Source: Planctomycetota bacterium (GTDB taxonomy: Bacteria; Planctomycetota; UBA1135; GCA-002748355). From it: a stretch of 32,238 nucleotides of DNA. The notes below the pieces were generated by a model. That model was given only the letters and a program-made list of their open reading frames with translations, was not told the origin of the DNA and ran no database searches. Shown here piece by piece: positions 26,358 through 32,238 of the stretch (position 1 is the first letter of the stretch; every line of letters starts with the position of its first letter). Position numbers and translations under genes: made by a program. The stretch covers positions 1-32,238 of the forward strand of contig NYZE01000110.1 in NCBI GenBank assembly GCA_002685965.1, written 5' to 3'.

Positions 26358-27533
26358 TCAGGCCTTGTTCGAGGCTGCCGCGAGCCATGGTGCCAGAGCC
26401 TCACGCACCATGTCCACACTGATCAGGTCTTGGCAGCTCGGCTCCCGATCGCACGTGCCGTAGCAAACGAGGCAATCCAGACCTTCGGCGAAAACCTTGC
26501 TGCCCCTTCCGTAGAGGTCGATCTCGGCGGAAGACGTCGGGCCGAACAGGGCGATCGTGGGCTTGCCGAGCGCGCAACCGAGGTGCAATGCCATGGTGTC
26601 GCCGGTCACCAGCGCGTCACACAGCCCGAGCCGCGCGGCAAACTCACGCAAGCCGTTGTCGTTGCCGGCATCGATGCACGCGTCCGGGCACGCTGCACAC
26701 AGTTCCGCGTGGCGCTGGCGTTCCTCGGATCCGCCAAGCAGAACGGTGAGATCACCGTCGGCAGCGAGGGCCGTGATCAGGCCGATCTGTCCGCCGAGCG
26801 TCCATTGCTTGCGCGGCCAACGTCCACCGGCTCCGGTGTTGATCCCGACCAAGGTGCGCCAAGACTTGTTCGCGGTCGCCGTCGCGAGCCACCTGCGCGC
26901 TGTCTCGACCTCCGTATCCGACAGGGCGAGCATCGGCCGATCCTCAATGGGCAGGGGTAGCTCAAAGATCTCGCCGAGCATGGTCTGGTAGGTCTTGGTG
27001 TTGGCCTTCTTACGCGCATCCGAGACCCCCATCAGCAACCAGGCGAGCGCCGATTCCGACAGAGGCTCGACCCGACCGTCGCCATCGAGACCGTATCCGA
27101 TGCGTCGACCGCCTTCGCGCAGTCTCAACCCGGTGGCCAGAGACGCCGTCTCGTGGTCTGCATCCGGACAGATCACGAGGTCGAACGGCGTGCACCGCAT
27201 CGTCTCGGGCAGCGTGGCGTCGTTGGTCGTGTGCAGTTCATCGACGAACTCGTTGCCCACGAACAGCGGCGCCGCTTCGGGTCGAGTCAGCCAGGAGACG
27301 CTCGCATTCGGGTAGCGCCGACGCAATCCAGGCAAGAACGCCGTCGTCCGCAGCACGTCACCAACGGCACCCAGCTTGACGATCGCGACGCGCATGTCGA
27401 TCGGGTCGTACTCGTCGCAGCCCTCGCAGACTTTGCCACGCAGCTTGTGCGGGAGGCACGGTCGTTCTGGCCGAAACCAGCGACAGTCACGGGCCAAGGC
27501 GTGGAATGCGGGTGAGTCCATTGGATCTGACAC
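26358..27533 (-). CDS. Family 9 glycosyltransferase (ADP-heptose:LPS heptosyltransferase-like) with N-terminal Cys/His cluster
   Basis: 391 residues. The GT-B core starts at MRVAIVKLGAVGDVLRTTAFLPGL (about 47), a heptosyltransferase hallmark, and the C-terminal domain has GINTGAGGRWPRKQW and TGDTMALHLGCALGKPTIALFGPTSSAEIDLYG, the ADP-heptose site pattern. A 45-residue N-terminal extension carries C17, C26, H29, C36 and C39, a possible small zinc site. Likely adds heptose to an LPS-core-like acceptor on the cytosolic face. Start GTG 27533 lies three bases after the preceding stop; ATG 27521 is an alternative that removes four residues. gmhA in the same window would supply the heptose pathway. 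Confidence 0.9.
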   Translation of the reverse strand: MSDPMDSPAFHALARDCRWFRPERPCLPHKLRGKVCEGCDEYDPIDMRVAIVKLGAVGDVLRTTAFLPGLRRRYPNASVSWLTRPEAAPLFVGNEFVDELHTTNDATLPETMRCTPFDLVICPDADHETASLATGLRLREGGRRIGYGLDGDGRVEPLSESALAWLLMGVSDARKKANTKTYQTMLGEIFELPLPIEDRPMLALSDTEVETARRWLATATANKSWRTLVGINTGAGGRWPRKQWTLGGQIGLITALAADGDLTVLLGGSEERQRHAELCAACPDACIDAGNDNGLREFAARLGLCDALVTGDTMALHLGCALGKPTIALFGPTSSAEIDLYGRGSKVFAEGLDCLVCYGTCDREPSCQDLISVDMVREALAPWLAAASNKA

Positions 27534-27536
27534 GGC

Positions 27537-28643
27537 TCAGATAGTAGCGCCGCTGAGACGCCTGTAGAGCTGTTCGGTCTGGATGCACATGTCATGGACG
27601 GAGAAGCGCTGCTGAACGCGCATGGAGGCTGCGCCGCCGAGCCTCTGACGGAGCTGCGCGTCTTGCCGCAGACGATCGATCGCCGTGGCCAACGCCCCGG
27701 CATCAGCGGGCCTGACAAGCAACCCGCTCACGTCTGGCTCGACCGCATCCATGATGCCCCCGACGCCGCTGGCCACGACCGGGAGCCCGACCGCCATCGC
27801 CTCCAGCAGCGCGACACCCAGGCCCTCCTTGCGCGAAGGAAGGGCGAACAAGTCCGCTGCAGCAAGCAGCGGCCGCACATCGGGGACCTGGCCGGGGAAG
27901 CGGACTTCGACGTGGGCGGGCAGCGCCTGGGCGGCACGCTGCAACGCCGCTCGCTCCGGGCCCTCGCCGGCACAGATCCAGACGAGGCGGGTGTCACCGA
28001 CCGCTTCCAGCGTCCCGAGCGCTTGGATCAGGACATCGATCCCTTTTCGCTCGTGCAGCGACGCGGTCGTCACCCCGCACAGGGTCGCGTCATCTAGCCC
28101 GAGTTCGGCACGGGCAGCGACCCGCCCCTCGGACACCAAAGCAAGTCCATCAGCATCGACACCATCGAAGATCAAGCACACGCGCTCCGGCTCGACACCG
28201 ATACGGAGCACGGCGTCGCGCACGCCCCTCGACACGACGATCACAGCTGCCATCGCTCGCCCATAGAGCCAACGCCGGTAGCGAGAACGGGGCAATGAGT
28301 AGTCCATGCGCCGAGTTGTCCCCTTCGGCGCGCAGCCACTCATGCCAATGCTGGCGTGTGCGCCGAGCTTGTGACTGCGCGAGCAGGCGAGGTGGATCAA
28401 GTCGGGAGCAACTTCGCGAAACAGCCGCCGTAGGCGCGCGGTGGCTCCGAGGTCCACATCGTTGCGCATCCGAACCTCGTGCACCGCAAGGCCGAGGTCC
28501 AGCGCGTGTGGCTTGAACTTCGCTTCAGGATTCAGCGCGAGGACGGACTCGTGACCCTCGCCCGCCAAGTGCCGCAGCACATGCCGGAGCTGATGCTCGC
28601 CTCCCGAGAATCCCCGCTCGGCGAGGACGTGCAGAACCCGCAG
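27537..28643 (-). CDS. Family 4 glycosyltransferase with probable CTG start
   Basis: 368 residues if started at CTG 28643. A conventional start (GTG 28580) would remove RVLHVLAERGFSGGEHQLRH, which holds strand 1 and the SGGEH loop (13-17) that GT4 enzymes use to hold the nucleotide sugar. An in-frame TAA lies two codons upstream of the CTG, and no ATG, GTG or TTG lies between. GGAGG at 28651-28655 is seven bases before the CTG. The C-terminal half has ASLHERKGIDVLIQAL and the EGLGVALLEAMAVGLPVVAS motif (E-x7-E). It is a GT-B enzyme in LPS-core-type assembly; the sugar is not determinable. Confidence 0.86.
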   Translation of the reverse strand: MRVLHVLAERGFSGGEHQLRHVLRHLAGEGHESVLALNPEAKFKPHALDLGLAVHEVRMRNDVDLGATARLRRLFREVAPDLIHLACSRSHKLGAHASIGMSGCAPKGTTRRMDYSLPRSRYRRWLYGRAMAAVIVVSRGVRDAVLRIGVEPERVCLIFDGVDADGLALVSEGRVAARAELGLDDATLCGVTTASLHERKGIDVLIQALGTLEAVGDTRLVWICAGEGPERAALQRAAQALPAHVEVRFPGQVPDVRPLLAAADLFALPSRKEGLGVALLEAMAVGLPVVASGVGGIMDAVEPDVSGLLVRPADAGALATAIDRLRQDAQLRQRLGGAASMRVQQRFSVHDMCIQTEQLYRRLSGATI

Positions 28644-28646
28644 TTT

Positions 28647-29867
28647 TTATCCTCCGCCGAAACCCGAGGCATGTCGGAGACATCTGCGCGCAGGCTCGAA
28701 GTCGACCCGCCCATCGCGGGGGTAAAGCACCGCCGCGGTCTCGTTCTGCTCGTCGATACCGATCTCGAGCACTTCGTCGACCAAGTCGAGCGGGCACGAC
28801 AGCTGCCGTTCCTGCGCGATGATCTCGAGGATCTCGGTCACGCGCCGGTCATAGCGGTGGCTCTTCATGACGAGTGCGTGCCCCTGCTCAGCGATGCGCT
28901 CGCGCTCGGCCTGATCGCCGAGGTAGCGGTCGACCTGCTCGAGGCATTCATCGCGATCGTGGAACCACGCGAGATGCTCGTCGCGATCGAACACGCGCTC
29001 GGTTCCGGGCACGTGACGCATCAGATGAAAGCCCTTGCAAGCGAGCGTCAGAAAGACGCGGTTGCTGTAGTAGAGGCTCGATTCGTGCGTCTGGTTGAGC
29101 CCGATCACGATCTTGGACCGCGCGCACACCTCTGCGTATCGACTCGGCCGCACCTCGCCACGTACGCGCAGCTGCTTGTACCTCTTCATGTACGGCAGCC
29201 ACGAATCGCGCGTGCCGAAGATCTCGAGGTCGTAACGCTCCGACAGCCACGCCAGGAACTCGGGCCGATTGCCCATGCTGCCGGGCCCGCCGATGTAAAC
29301 GAGGTCGCGGTCGTAGTGCCCCTGCCCGAAGTCGCGGTGCGGCTTGTGGTACTGCGGTGAGAAGCCGCTCATCTGGAACGTCGCGTTCTGCACACCTAGC
29401 GAGCGATACGCCCACACGAGGCTCGGCGTCGACAAGCAAACGAGTCGTGCCTGGCGTACGTAGTCGACCTGGGCAGAGTCGATGTACTTGATCGGCTCCT
29501 CGATCCAGACCACCGTCGGCAGTTCTTCTGTGAACTCCTGCATCAAGACGTGCGGCAAGTCGTGGAAGAACACGAAACACAGGTCAGGTCGATAGCGCTT
29601 GCGCAGGTAGCGCACGACGTAGCGCATGCCCCACGCGCCGATCCAGCGCTTCAACAACGAGCAGTTGACCCACTTGACCTTAAGGCCTTGATTGCGCAGC
29701 GACTGCACGAGCGCGCCGGTGCAGCATGAGCGCGACTTCTTCTTGCCGAAGAAGAGCACGCGACGCGGCCGGATCGGCTCGCAGTCTGGCGGATCTGGCA
29801 GTTCGCTGGCCTTCGGCAACGGTTGCTCGACGGAACTACGCAGCGATCCGTTGCGCCGGCCGGCCAT
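28647..29867 (-). CDS. CgeB-like glycosyltransferase
   Basis: 406 residues. The N-terminal ~35 residues are Pro/Arg-rich and probably disordered. A GT-B-like fold follows: RRVLFFGKKKSRSCCTGALVQSL, then VVWIEEPIKYID, DLVYIGGPGSMGNRPEFLAWL, IVIGLNQTHESSLYYSNRVFLTLACKGF and the tail region ERIAEQGHALVMKSHRYDRRVTEIL. These match the CgeB/Glyco_trans_1_2 pattern of spore-coat and envelope glycosyltransferases. A Cys pair (SCCTG) replaces the usual glycine-rich loop. ATG 29867 has GGAGGAG nine bases upstream. It sits between the kinase and the GT4 gene in the envelope operon. Confidence 0.8.
   Translation of the reverse strand: MAGRRNGSLRSSVEQPLPKASELPDPPDCEPIRPRRVLFFGKKKSRSCCTGALVQSLRNQGLKVKWVNCSLLKRWIGAWGMRYVVRYLRKRYRPDLCFVFFHDLPHVLMQEFTEELPTVVWIEEPIKYIDSAQVDYVRQARLVCLSTPSLVWAYRSLGVQNATFQMSGFSPQYHKPHRDFGQGHYDRDLVYIGGPGSMGNRPEFLAWLSERYDLEIFGTRDSWLPYMKRYKQLRVRGEVRPSRYAEVCARSKIVIGLNQTHESSLYYSNRVFLTLACKGFHLMRHVPGTERVFDRDEHLAWFHDRDECLEQVDRYLGDQAERERIAEQGHALVMKSHRYDRRVTEILEIIAQERQLSCPLDLVDEVLEIGIDEQNETAAVLYPRDGRVDFEPARRCLRHASGFGGG
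28651..28655 (-). promoter_or_regulatory. Shine-Dalgarno that decides the CTG start
   Basis: GGAGG on the minus strand, inside the last codons of the upstream gene, seven bases before CTG 28643. The upstream TAA is at 28649-28647, so terminating ribosomes would sit next to the site. Confidence 0.7.
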
Positions 29868-29890: not shown

Positions 29891-30976
29891 TCAGCGGGTC
29901 AGGGTAGGGGCTGCCATGACAGCAGCATCGGCGAGGACACCCTCCCACGCCGCACGCAGCCCCGAACTGCCCATAGAGCCGCAAATATACAGGGACTCCT
30001 GGGCCCATGGCCAAGGGCCAATCCGCTCCCAAGCGAGGAATCCGGAGTCGCGGTCGGCGAGCGGCCCATGCATCCAAAGTGTGCGCAAAAGCCCACGTCG
30101 GCGAACTCGCACAACCGACCCGTCCCCGCTGACGGCAATCAAAGCTGCACCAACCGGCGTTGTCCGCTCGAGGACCTCTTGGTCGAACCGCTGGGGTAGC
30201 TCGCTACCCCGCAAGCGCAGGCGGCATCCGAGCAGCCCCACGCGCTCGCGGCACACCAGCGTGCTGTCGCGCAGGCGGTGCCGGGCCCGCGATGCCCGGC
30301 ACCGCGCCTTCAGCTGTCCAGCAACCTGCAGCGCCGCGTCAACCAGACGCGTGTCGTCGGTGAGGGACCGCAGCACCGGCTCCGGCAAAGCACCGCGCGC
30401 CGTCAGCCACGCCATCGCCTTGCCAATCATCCAGGCAAGGCGTCGGCCCCTGACCGCACCCCCACTGACGCTACATGACTGGAAATCGAGGAAGGCGTAG
30501 CGCCCCGCGCCCCCAGCATCGGTCAGCAGGCGTACGTTGTCGCCGTGCATGTCCGGATGGAACACGCCATGCTCGGCCAACCAAAGCACCGCGTGGAGCA
30601 GGTCTTCGACACCGGGTTCGGTTCCGGCCGCCAGCTCTTCGGTGACGAGAACCGCTGAGGTCGGACCGAGCAGCCCACGTTCGGTGGCCTCGGCCAGCGG
30701 CTGCGGCACAACCACGCCGCGCTGCGCGGCCAGCCGCAGCATCGCGACCTCGCGCGCTGTCGGCGAGGCCCTGAGCCAGTAGCGAGCGCGGACCGCCAGT
30801 CGCGGAAAGAGGTGCTGCTTGGCGAACACGACACGATCGCCAAGGGGCATCCGCAAGACACGACGCACGAATCGCTCCTGCACGACCTCCGCCTCGACCG
30901 GCACACCGCCGGCCAACACTTGGCGCAGGGCTTCGCGCTCCGTGGCGGACAGCTCGGGCGCATGCCAAACGCGCAT
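29891..30976 (-). CDS. Kdo/WaaP-type lipopolysaccharide core kinase
   Basis: 361 residues with a small-kinase (protein-kinase-like) fold. Visible active-site elements are Lys53 (VVFAKQH), Glu76, the catalytic HPDMHGDN at 140-147 (D142, N147) and the metal-binding LDFQ with D164. This HxDxHxxN pattern is that of the lipopolysaccharide kinase family that phosphorylates Kdo or heptose in the inner core. The last ~150 residues are Arg-rich and unrecognised. ATG 30976 lies one base after the preceding stop; the longer frame to 31444 is a shadow of the GT4 gene. The phosphorylated sugar is inferred from the operon. Confidence 0.85.
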   Translation of the reverse strand: MRVWHAPELSATEREALRQVLAGGVPVEAEVVQERFVRRVLRMPLGDRVVFAKQHLFPRLAVRARYWLRASPTAREVAMLRLAAQRGVVVPQPLAEATERGLLGPTSAVLVTEELAAGTEPGVEDLLHAVLWLAEHGVFHPDMHGDNVRLLTDAGGAGRYAFLDFQSCSVSGGAVRGRRLAWMIGKAMAWLTARGALPEPVLRSLTDDTRLVDAALQVAGQLKARCRASRARHRLRDSTLVCRERVGLLGCRLRLRGSELPQRFDQEVLERTTPVGAALIAVSGDGSVVRVRRRGLLRTLWMHGPLADRDSGFLAWERIGPWPWAQESLYICGSMGSSGLRAAWEGVLADAAVMAAPTLTR

Positions 30977-30977
30977 G

Positions 30978-32147
30978 TCAGGCCTCCAGTGATCGGTAAA
31001 GGCGTGCACACTGCTCCGCCGCGACTTCGGCTGACCAGCGCGCCGCAGCCGTATCCGCCGCGGCCCGACCGAGACGGTCCCGTCCAGCTTCATCGACGCG
31101 TAACTGGTCAAGGGCGCGGCCCAGAACGGCGCTGTCGGCTGGGCGAACCAGACCATCAACGTCGTTGGTGACCAGGTCGGGGATGCGGCCCAGATCAGTC
31201 GCAACGACCGGCAGGCCAACCGCCATGGCTTCGCGCAATGCACGGCAGGTTGCGTCCGAGCCAGGCACCAGAAACACGAACGCATCGAGCCCACCGAGCA
31301 CTCGGTGATAGGCCTCGCCAAAACGATAGCCGAGGAAGTGCACCCGTTCTTGCAAGCCCAGCTCGGCGATCGGCCGCGCACACACCTCGTCGAAGACGCC
31401 ATCGTCGGGACGGCCGAGCACAGCCAGGTGAACACCGACAGCATCGGCGAGCATGTTCCACAGCAACTCCCAGCGACGCTTGCGCTGGATGCGTGCCGTG
31501 ATGCCCACGAGGAACACGTCGGAAGCTAGACCAAGCTCACGGAACAACTCGTCGCGCAGTGACACATCGCGCGCCGCGGCGGGAGCACCACCCGGCACGG
31601 CGACAGTAGCAACCCGCGCCGCCGGAAAGCCTAACTCATCAACGATCGCAGCCGCCACGTCGTCGAACACAGCCGTAGCCGCGGCCGTCTCAGCGAACGC
31701 AAGGCGCGCCCGCGGACCCGGGTGCCCCAGCGTGCCATCCCAGACGCTGCGCACGATCCGTACCTGACGCGACGCCGTGCGCTGCGCCAGCGCGGCAGTC
31801 AGATGATCACCGGGCTGGTGACAGTGCAGCACATCAACAGCACCATCGTCGATCCACGTCGTGAGCTGCCGCGCATCGGCCAGGAGCGAGGGAACGTGCA
31901 GGTGACGGCGCAATCGCAGCGCGTTGCACGTCCGCACGCCGAGCGCGTGCGCGCGCTTCGCGACCGCGTTGTCGAGGCCGGGCGCGACGAACTGCGAGAC
32001 CGCGAACGAGGTCTCGACCTCGACACCATCCACCTCGAGCCCGTCCTGATGCTGCGCCAACAGCAACGCAAGCTCGCATGGACCGGTCCACTTCGAGTTC
32101 GCATACAGGTGCATGACCCGCAAGAGCGCTGGCGCAGCCGTGCTCAC
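30978..32147 (-). CDS. Family 4 glycosyltransferase
   Basis: 389 residues from GTG 32147, preceded by GAGGAAG five bases upstream and overlapping the stop of the partial gene in a GTGA. A longer frame to 32228 would cross that gene. The N-terminal strand LRVMHLYANSKWTGPCELALLLA fits a GT-B fold with an altered sugar loop. The C-terminal half has VGITARIQRKRRWELLWNML and PGSDATCRALREAMAVGLPVVAT, in which the first Glu of E-x7-E is Asp. Likely a retaining transferase of an LPS-core-type glycan; donor unknown. Confidence 0.87.
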   Translation of the reverse strand: MSTAAPALLRVMHLYANSKWTGPCELALLLAQHQDGLEVDGVEVETSFAVSQFVAPGLDNAVAKRAHALGVRTCNALRLRRHLHVPSLLADARQLTTWIDDGAVDVLHCHQPGDHLTAALAQRTASRQVRIVRSVWDGTLGHPGPRARLAFAETAAATAVFDDVAAAIVDELGFPAARVATVAVPGGAPAAARDVSLRDELFRELGLASDVFLVGITARIQRKRRWELLWNMLADAVGVHLAVLGRPDDGVFDEVCARPIAELGLQERVHFLGYRFGEAYHRVLGGLDAFVFLVPGSDATCRALREAMAVGLPVVATDLGRIPDLVTNDVDGLVRPADSAVLGRALDQLRVDEAGRDRLGRAAADTAAARWSAEVAAEQCARLYRSLEA

Positions 32148-32238
32148 GAGGGCTTCCTCGAGCGCAGCAATGCGTACTTGCGAAAGTCGTAGCGCGCCGA
32201 CATCCAAGCCGCGAGAAACCCGCGCCAACCATCGAGGA
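32144..32238 (-). CDS. C-terminal end of an envelope glycosyltransferase (partial)
   Basis: Only the last 30 residues are in the window, read from the right edge to a TGA at 32146-32144. They contain GWRGFLAAWMSARYDFRKYALL, the kind of C-terminal amphipathic/membrane-associated end I know from WaaE/KdtX-type GT2 proteins. The frame is supported by the GTGA overlap with the next gene. The identity is an inference from a short segment. It shows that the envelope operon extends beyond the window. Confidence 0.55.
   Translation of the reverse strand, partial: LDGWRGFLAAWMSARYDFRKYALLRSRKPS

Follow-up and report, generated by a model that had tools for sequence, protein, structure and literature searches.

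CUG is a rare initiation codon in bacteria. It accounts for about 0.024% of bacterial starts (cited in PMC11497404), and initiation at CUG in E. coli amounts to 0.86% (about 0.9%) of that at AUG (PMC11497404). Switches to CUG have been recorded for only 2 of 61,358 ancestral AUG starts, 1 of 5,080 GUG starts and 1 of 2,468 UUG starts (PMC5622118). In mycobacteria, CTG behind a Shine–Dalgarno (SD) sequence is not enriched (PMC4633059). Both the low efficiency in E. coli and the mycobacterial data count against a CTG start such as the one considered below. A second well-described system relevant here is termination–reinitiation, which is efficient over short distances only, with +3 nt lying within its working range (PMC10666635).

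Here we describe a gene for a GT4-type glycosyltransferase that is predicted to start with CTG. It lies in a 32,238-nt stretch of DNA from a Planctomycetota bacterium (contig NYZE01000110.1), and this whole stretch is referred to below as the window. Like the rare CUG starts on record (PMC5622118, PMC11497404), the candidate is an NTG codon behind an SD sequence, at a place where homologues have ATG, GTG or TTG; it differs from them in that it was recognised through its homologues, in just one uncultured genome, and is a prediction from sequence. As in termination–reinitiation (PMC10666635), the stop of the preceding gene lies 3 nt before the start, the SD sequence is inside the upstream gene, and both genes are on the same operon strand, but in most coupled pairs the two genes share 4 or 1 nt, whereas the gap in the window is +3 nt.

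A GT4 gene within a glycosyltransferase operon

The gene belongs to a minus-strand run of glycosyltransferase genes, with a PF13524 gene upstream and GT9-like and GT2-like genes downstream (Table 1). Read from CTG 28643, its frame closes at TGA 27539-27537. The preliminary description placed it at 27537-28660; the end at 27537 holds, while 28660 falls within the upstream gene, and the coding sequence is thus 27537-28643.

Table 1. Features at the start region of the GT4 gene and its neighbours (positions in the window)
Feature	Position	Strand	Details
GT4-type glycosyltransferase, CDS read from CTG	27537..28643	-	368 aa plus TGA; PF00534, PF13439, homologues
CTG, proposed start codon	28641..28643	-	ATG/GTG/TTG at the same codon in L011, L012, L013, L022, L024, L026, L027, L029, L031, L043
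GGAGG, Shine–Dalgarno sequence	28651..28655	-	7 nt before CTG; within the last codons of the upstream gene; duplex with 16S tail; CCTCC tail in family 16S genes L073, L075
TAA, stop of upstream gene	28647..28649	-	in the CTG frame, 3 nt before CTG
21 codons lost with a GTG 28580 start; encode LRVLHVLAERGFSGGEHQLRH	28581..28643	-	H5, S13, G14, G15, E16, Q18 invariant (n=17); mainly synonymous change versus relatives
GTG, first canonical start in frame, rejected	28578..28580	-	no SD; downstream of invariant residues
A5 run	28644..28648	-	one extra A would link the frame to ATG 28672-28670 (MPRVSAEDKKLRVLHV)
Upstream gene, glycosyltransferase-like, ATG start	28647..29867	-	406 aa; PF13524 1.9e-25
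Downstream gene, GT9 heptosyltransferase-like	26358..27533	-	PF01075 4e-14

Both GT4 domain profiles score above their curated cut-offs in a profile search with the CTG-form protein: the N-terminal domain PF13439 with 2e-16 and 60.9 bits (cut-off 28.5), and the C-terminal domain PF00534 with 1.5e-34 and 119.5 bits (cut-off 26.4). The R199–K200 pair and the EX7E pair E273/E281 are kept in all 17 sequences of an alignment of homologues. The two-domain architecture, the R–K pair, the EX7E motif and an N-terminal glycine loop are thus shared with the CAZy GT4 family (PF13439 plus PF00534) and with TIGR03088, the PEP-CTERM/XrtA glycosyltransferase, which is the nearest NCBIfam model. Residue 3 of the CTG-form protein is aligned to position 4 of this model, but the score of 160.5 bits, under the curated cut-off of 409.05, places the protein outside the TIGR03088 subfamily. 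Sequence searches of solved structures aligned mostly the C-terminal domain, and a single-sequence AlphaFold2 model of the 368-aa protein, built without an alignment, has a mean pLDDT of 37. The gene probably codes for a complete enzyme of GT4 type, with a putative GT-B fold, and the glycosyltransferase operon to which it belongs probably serves a surface glycan or the LPS core.

Further upstream on the same strand, a 517-aa open frame (29891-31444) overlaps a second GT4-like frame (30978-32228) by 467 nt. Downstream of the overlap the 517-aa frame has a sub-threshold match to PF06293 (Kdo/WaaP kinase; 18.8 bits versus a cut-off of 21.3), so its real start is probably close to 30976. The second GT4-like frame extends almost to the end of the contig, to 10 bases or less from it. 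Its N-terminal profile matches start only deep within the domain, and its 5′ end may therefore be atypical or truncated.

The start region

On the minus strand, the junction between the two genes reads GGC GGA GGA TAA AAA CTG CGG GTT CTG CAC, continues with GTC CTC GCC GAG CGG GGA TTC TCG GGA GGC GAG CAT CAG and arrives at CTC CGG CAT GTG; the reading of the assembly around CTG 28643 is TAAAAACTG. Direct reading confirmed every letter of the earlier statement that the frame is open back to TAA 28649-28647, with no ATG, GTG or TTG before GTG 28580, and GGAGG was indeed found seven bases before the CTG. The distance from CTG 28643 to GTG 28580 is exactly 21 codons (63 nt); when read in frame, these codons contain no ATG, GTG, TTG, ATT, ATC or ATA, and the one NTG among them apart from the first codon is CTG 28634, at 16 nt from GGAGG. 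CTG is listed among the possible starts in NCBI translation table 11.

GGAGG is a properly spaced SD sequence, and its pairing with the 16S tail is strong in a duplex calculation (-9.5 kcal/mol, versus -3.7 in the stretch that precedes GTG 28580). No 16S gene of the window genome was found in the assembly, and the tail GGATCACCTCC was therefore taken from the 16S genes of two family members. SD sequences are enriched at starts in the window genome: those of at least 5 bases at a distance of 4-10 nt precede 11% of inferred starts as against about 2.4% of random coding positions. The closest three homologues (L011-L013) have no recognisable SD, which counts against the CTG explanation. A further point against it is a weak predicted hairpin (28615-28665, minus strand) in which the SD sequence of the window (CGGCGGAGGA) could be bound by codons 6-10 (TCCTCGCCG). 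A regulatory role of such an SD-masking hairpin was rejected, as its energy is within that of shuffled sequences (z from -1.0 to -1.7, with -1.65 for the stretch given here) and the structure is not conserved.

Homologues and the position of the start

With the whole protein as query, full-length homologues of up to 56% identity were found in related genomes, and all seven genomes of the same family contain one, with 47-55% identity in the 17-sequence alignment. In 36 homologues from related genomes the N-terminal motif could be located, and all of them have ATG, GTG or TTG within -13 to +3 of the CTG codon, 10 of the 36 exactly on it; among these 36 and the window, only the window is devoid of a canonical start in this place. 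The exact ten include the closest three homologues, which have ATG (L011), GTG (L012) and GTG (L013) there, and in L011 and L012 the homologue is preceded by an open frame with a similar tail sequence. The comparison proposed in the preliminary description, namely whether homologues begin at the same point, thus gave a favourable answer, with ten canonical start codons at the CTG codon itself and the others within a few codons of it. As it was the motif that served to locate the 36, finding it there carries no independent weight; the members of the 17-sequence alignment entered by whole-protein score and provide a fairer test of motif conservation. In this alignment H5, S13, G14, G15, E16 and Q18, all within the 21 codons, are invariant, and no canonical start in the window is compatible with the N-terminus so conserved.

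The substitution pattern points the same way. Between the window and its relatives, pN in codons 2-21 is 0.13-0.32 and pS is 0.28-0.86, so that, judged from these values, this stretch changes as is expected of translated sequence. Profile matches to PF13439 and PF13579 begin at profile position 2 with the protein read from CTG, and at positions 12 and 11, respectively, with the protein read from GTG.

The junction itself, GGAG–stop–NNN–start, recurs among homologues: GCG GAG TAG CCC TTG in L024, GCG GAG TGA ATC GTG in L026 and TCG GAG TGA GTC GTG in L027, to be compared with GGA GGA TAA AAA CTG in the window. The same stop–NNN–start arrangement is seen at the other end of the GT4 gene, where its stop and the start of the next gene read TGA-GCC-GTG (27531-27539, minus strand). 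Stop–codon–start is therefore an ordinary layout in these three homologues and at the next junction of the window, and this layout predicts a start at 28643. Because of the homologue starts, the recurring junction, the invariant residues and the synonymous change within the 21 codons, CTG 28643 is the best-supported start codon, and its use is predicted with good confidence.

The 21 codons had been described as encoding strand 1 and an SGGEH "sugar-binding loop" of the GT4 N-terminus. The segment is present and conserved, but the loop is better named the beta1–alpha1 glycine loop. In the structures of DGD2 and related GT4 enzymes, the donor phosphate is contacted by an N-terminal glycine (Gly22 in DGD2), a residue that all the enzymes compared have kept (PMC12022483). 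By analogy of position after strand 1, G14–G15 of the window protein are likely the counterpart of this residue.

Alternative explanations

The main rival, though unlikely, is an error of base or frame in the assembly: either the true codon would be ATG, GTG or TTG, or the A5 run would really be A6, with a start at ATG 28672. A canonical start needs just one substitution or one extra A, the assembly consists of 167 contigs, and some homologues have short N-terminal extensions (-10 in L016, -2 in L017). The C at 28643 is known from this single assembly, the genus having neither a sister species nor any second genome, and a contig scan for closer relatives gave only distant proteins. On the other hand, short-read assemblies seldom contain single-base consensus errors, and the A5 run is short. 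As for ATG 28672, GGAGG is spaced for the CTG and would then serve nothing, and the start would overlap the upstream gene by 26 nt, whereas in L011, L012 and L014-L017, the six family homologues whose upstream frame is visible, that gene stops 14-42 nt ahead of the aligned position.

It is very unlikely that the start codon has been lost recently and that the gene is on its way to becoming a pseudogene, with CTG providing residual expression. CUG does initiate weakly (PMC11497404), and the canonical start is missing in the window genome only, but all 368 codons form an unbroken frame that retains R199, K200 and E273/E281 (a young pseudogene could look alike), and the neighbouring genes are intact as well.

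Finally, initiation at GTG 28580, which would give the 347-aa protein of a standard gene caller, can hardly be entertained: although this is the first canonical start codon in frame, it has no SD sequence, no homologue requires a start there, the codons upstream of it evolve as coding sequence, and strand 1, the invariant H5 and SGGEXQ would be lost. The earlier warning that a caller limited to ATG, GTG and TTG yields a protein without an essential loop is thus supported, and the finding named in advance as refuting a CTG start, homologues beginning at the position of GTG 28580, did not turn up, since SGGE upstream of this GTG is invariant (n=17).

A possible route of initiation at CTG 28643

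If CTG 28643 is the start, it would have arisen from an ancestral canonical NTG start by one substitution. Ribosomes would be guided to the CTG by the strong GGAGG at the very end of the preceding gene, and those fresh from termination at the TAA, 3 nt ahead of the CTG, would probably assist; the stop-to-start distance of +3 nt is within the short range over which reinitiation operates, and by analogy with that system coupling of the start to the upstream gene is plausible. The initiator tRNA would read CUG weakly, owing to a weak first-position pair, and insert methionine, so that the enzyme would be made full-length, probably at a low level. That selection keeps the CTG as a translational throttle, whereby inefficient reinitiation at CUG would set the amount of GT4 enzyme to a constant small fraction of that of the upstream glycosyltransferase, seems improbable.

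Candidate CTG starts elsewhere in the genome

A codon scan covered 0.98 Mb of the window genome with 613 called genes and recorded, ahead of the first canonical start, the codons preceded by an SD of 5 or more bases. CTG was found with an SD in 7 of 213 cases, and all codons together in 367 of 11,275, the same 3.3%. A genome-wide habit of CTG starts was therefore rejected, CTG with an SD being as common as any other codon, and the GT4 case looks isolated in this genome. Three of the other six CTG codons with an SD directly adjoin an ATG; the GT4 gene is the one with a homologue check, which found support. At another locus (L083, G000:C8, 15851-17092, minus strand), a CTG that has AAGGAG 7 nt upstream precedes the first canonical start by 7 codons (LRCGIFVVMGHRIARVVLLALC).

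Significance

The predicted CTG start of the GT4 gene is a further example of a known, rare phenomenon; it amounts to an annotation correction and brings no new mechanism, so that knowledge of initiation is unchanged. Its practical consequence concerns the deposited protein: common gene finders take ATG, GTG and TTG only, and the enzyme would then be deposited 21 residues short, without its first strand and glycine loop and so without part of its active site, a truncated GT4 entry that would mislead modelling and expression work. As a homology-supported CUG start with an SD sequence and a stop context, the case is one to include in estimates of how often such starts really occur.
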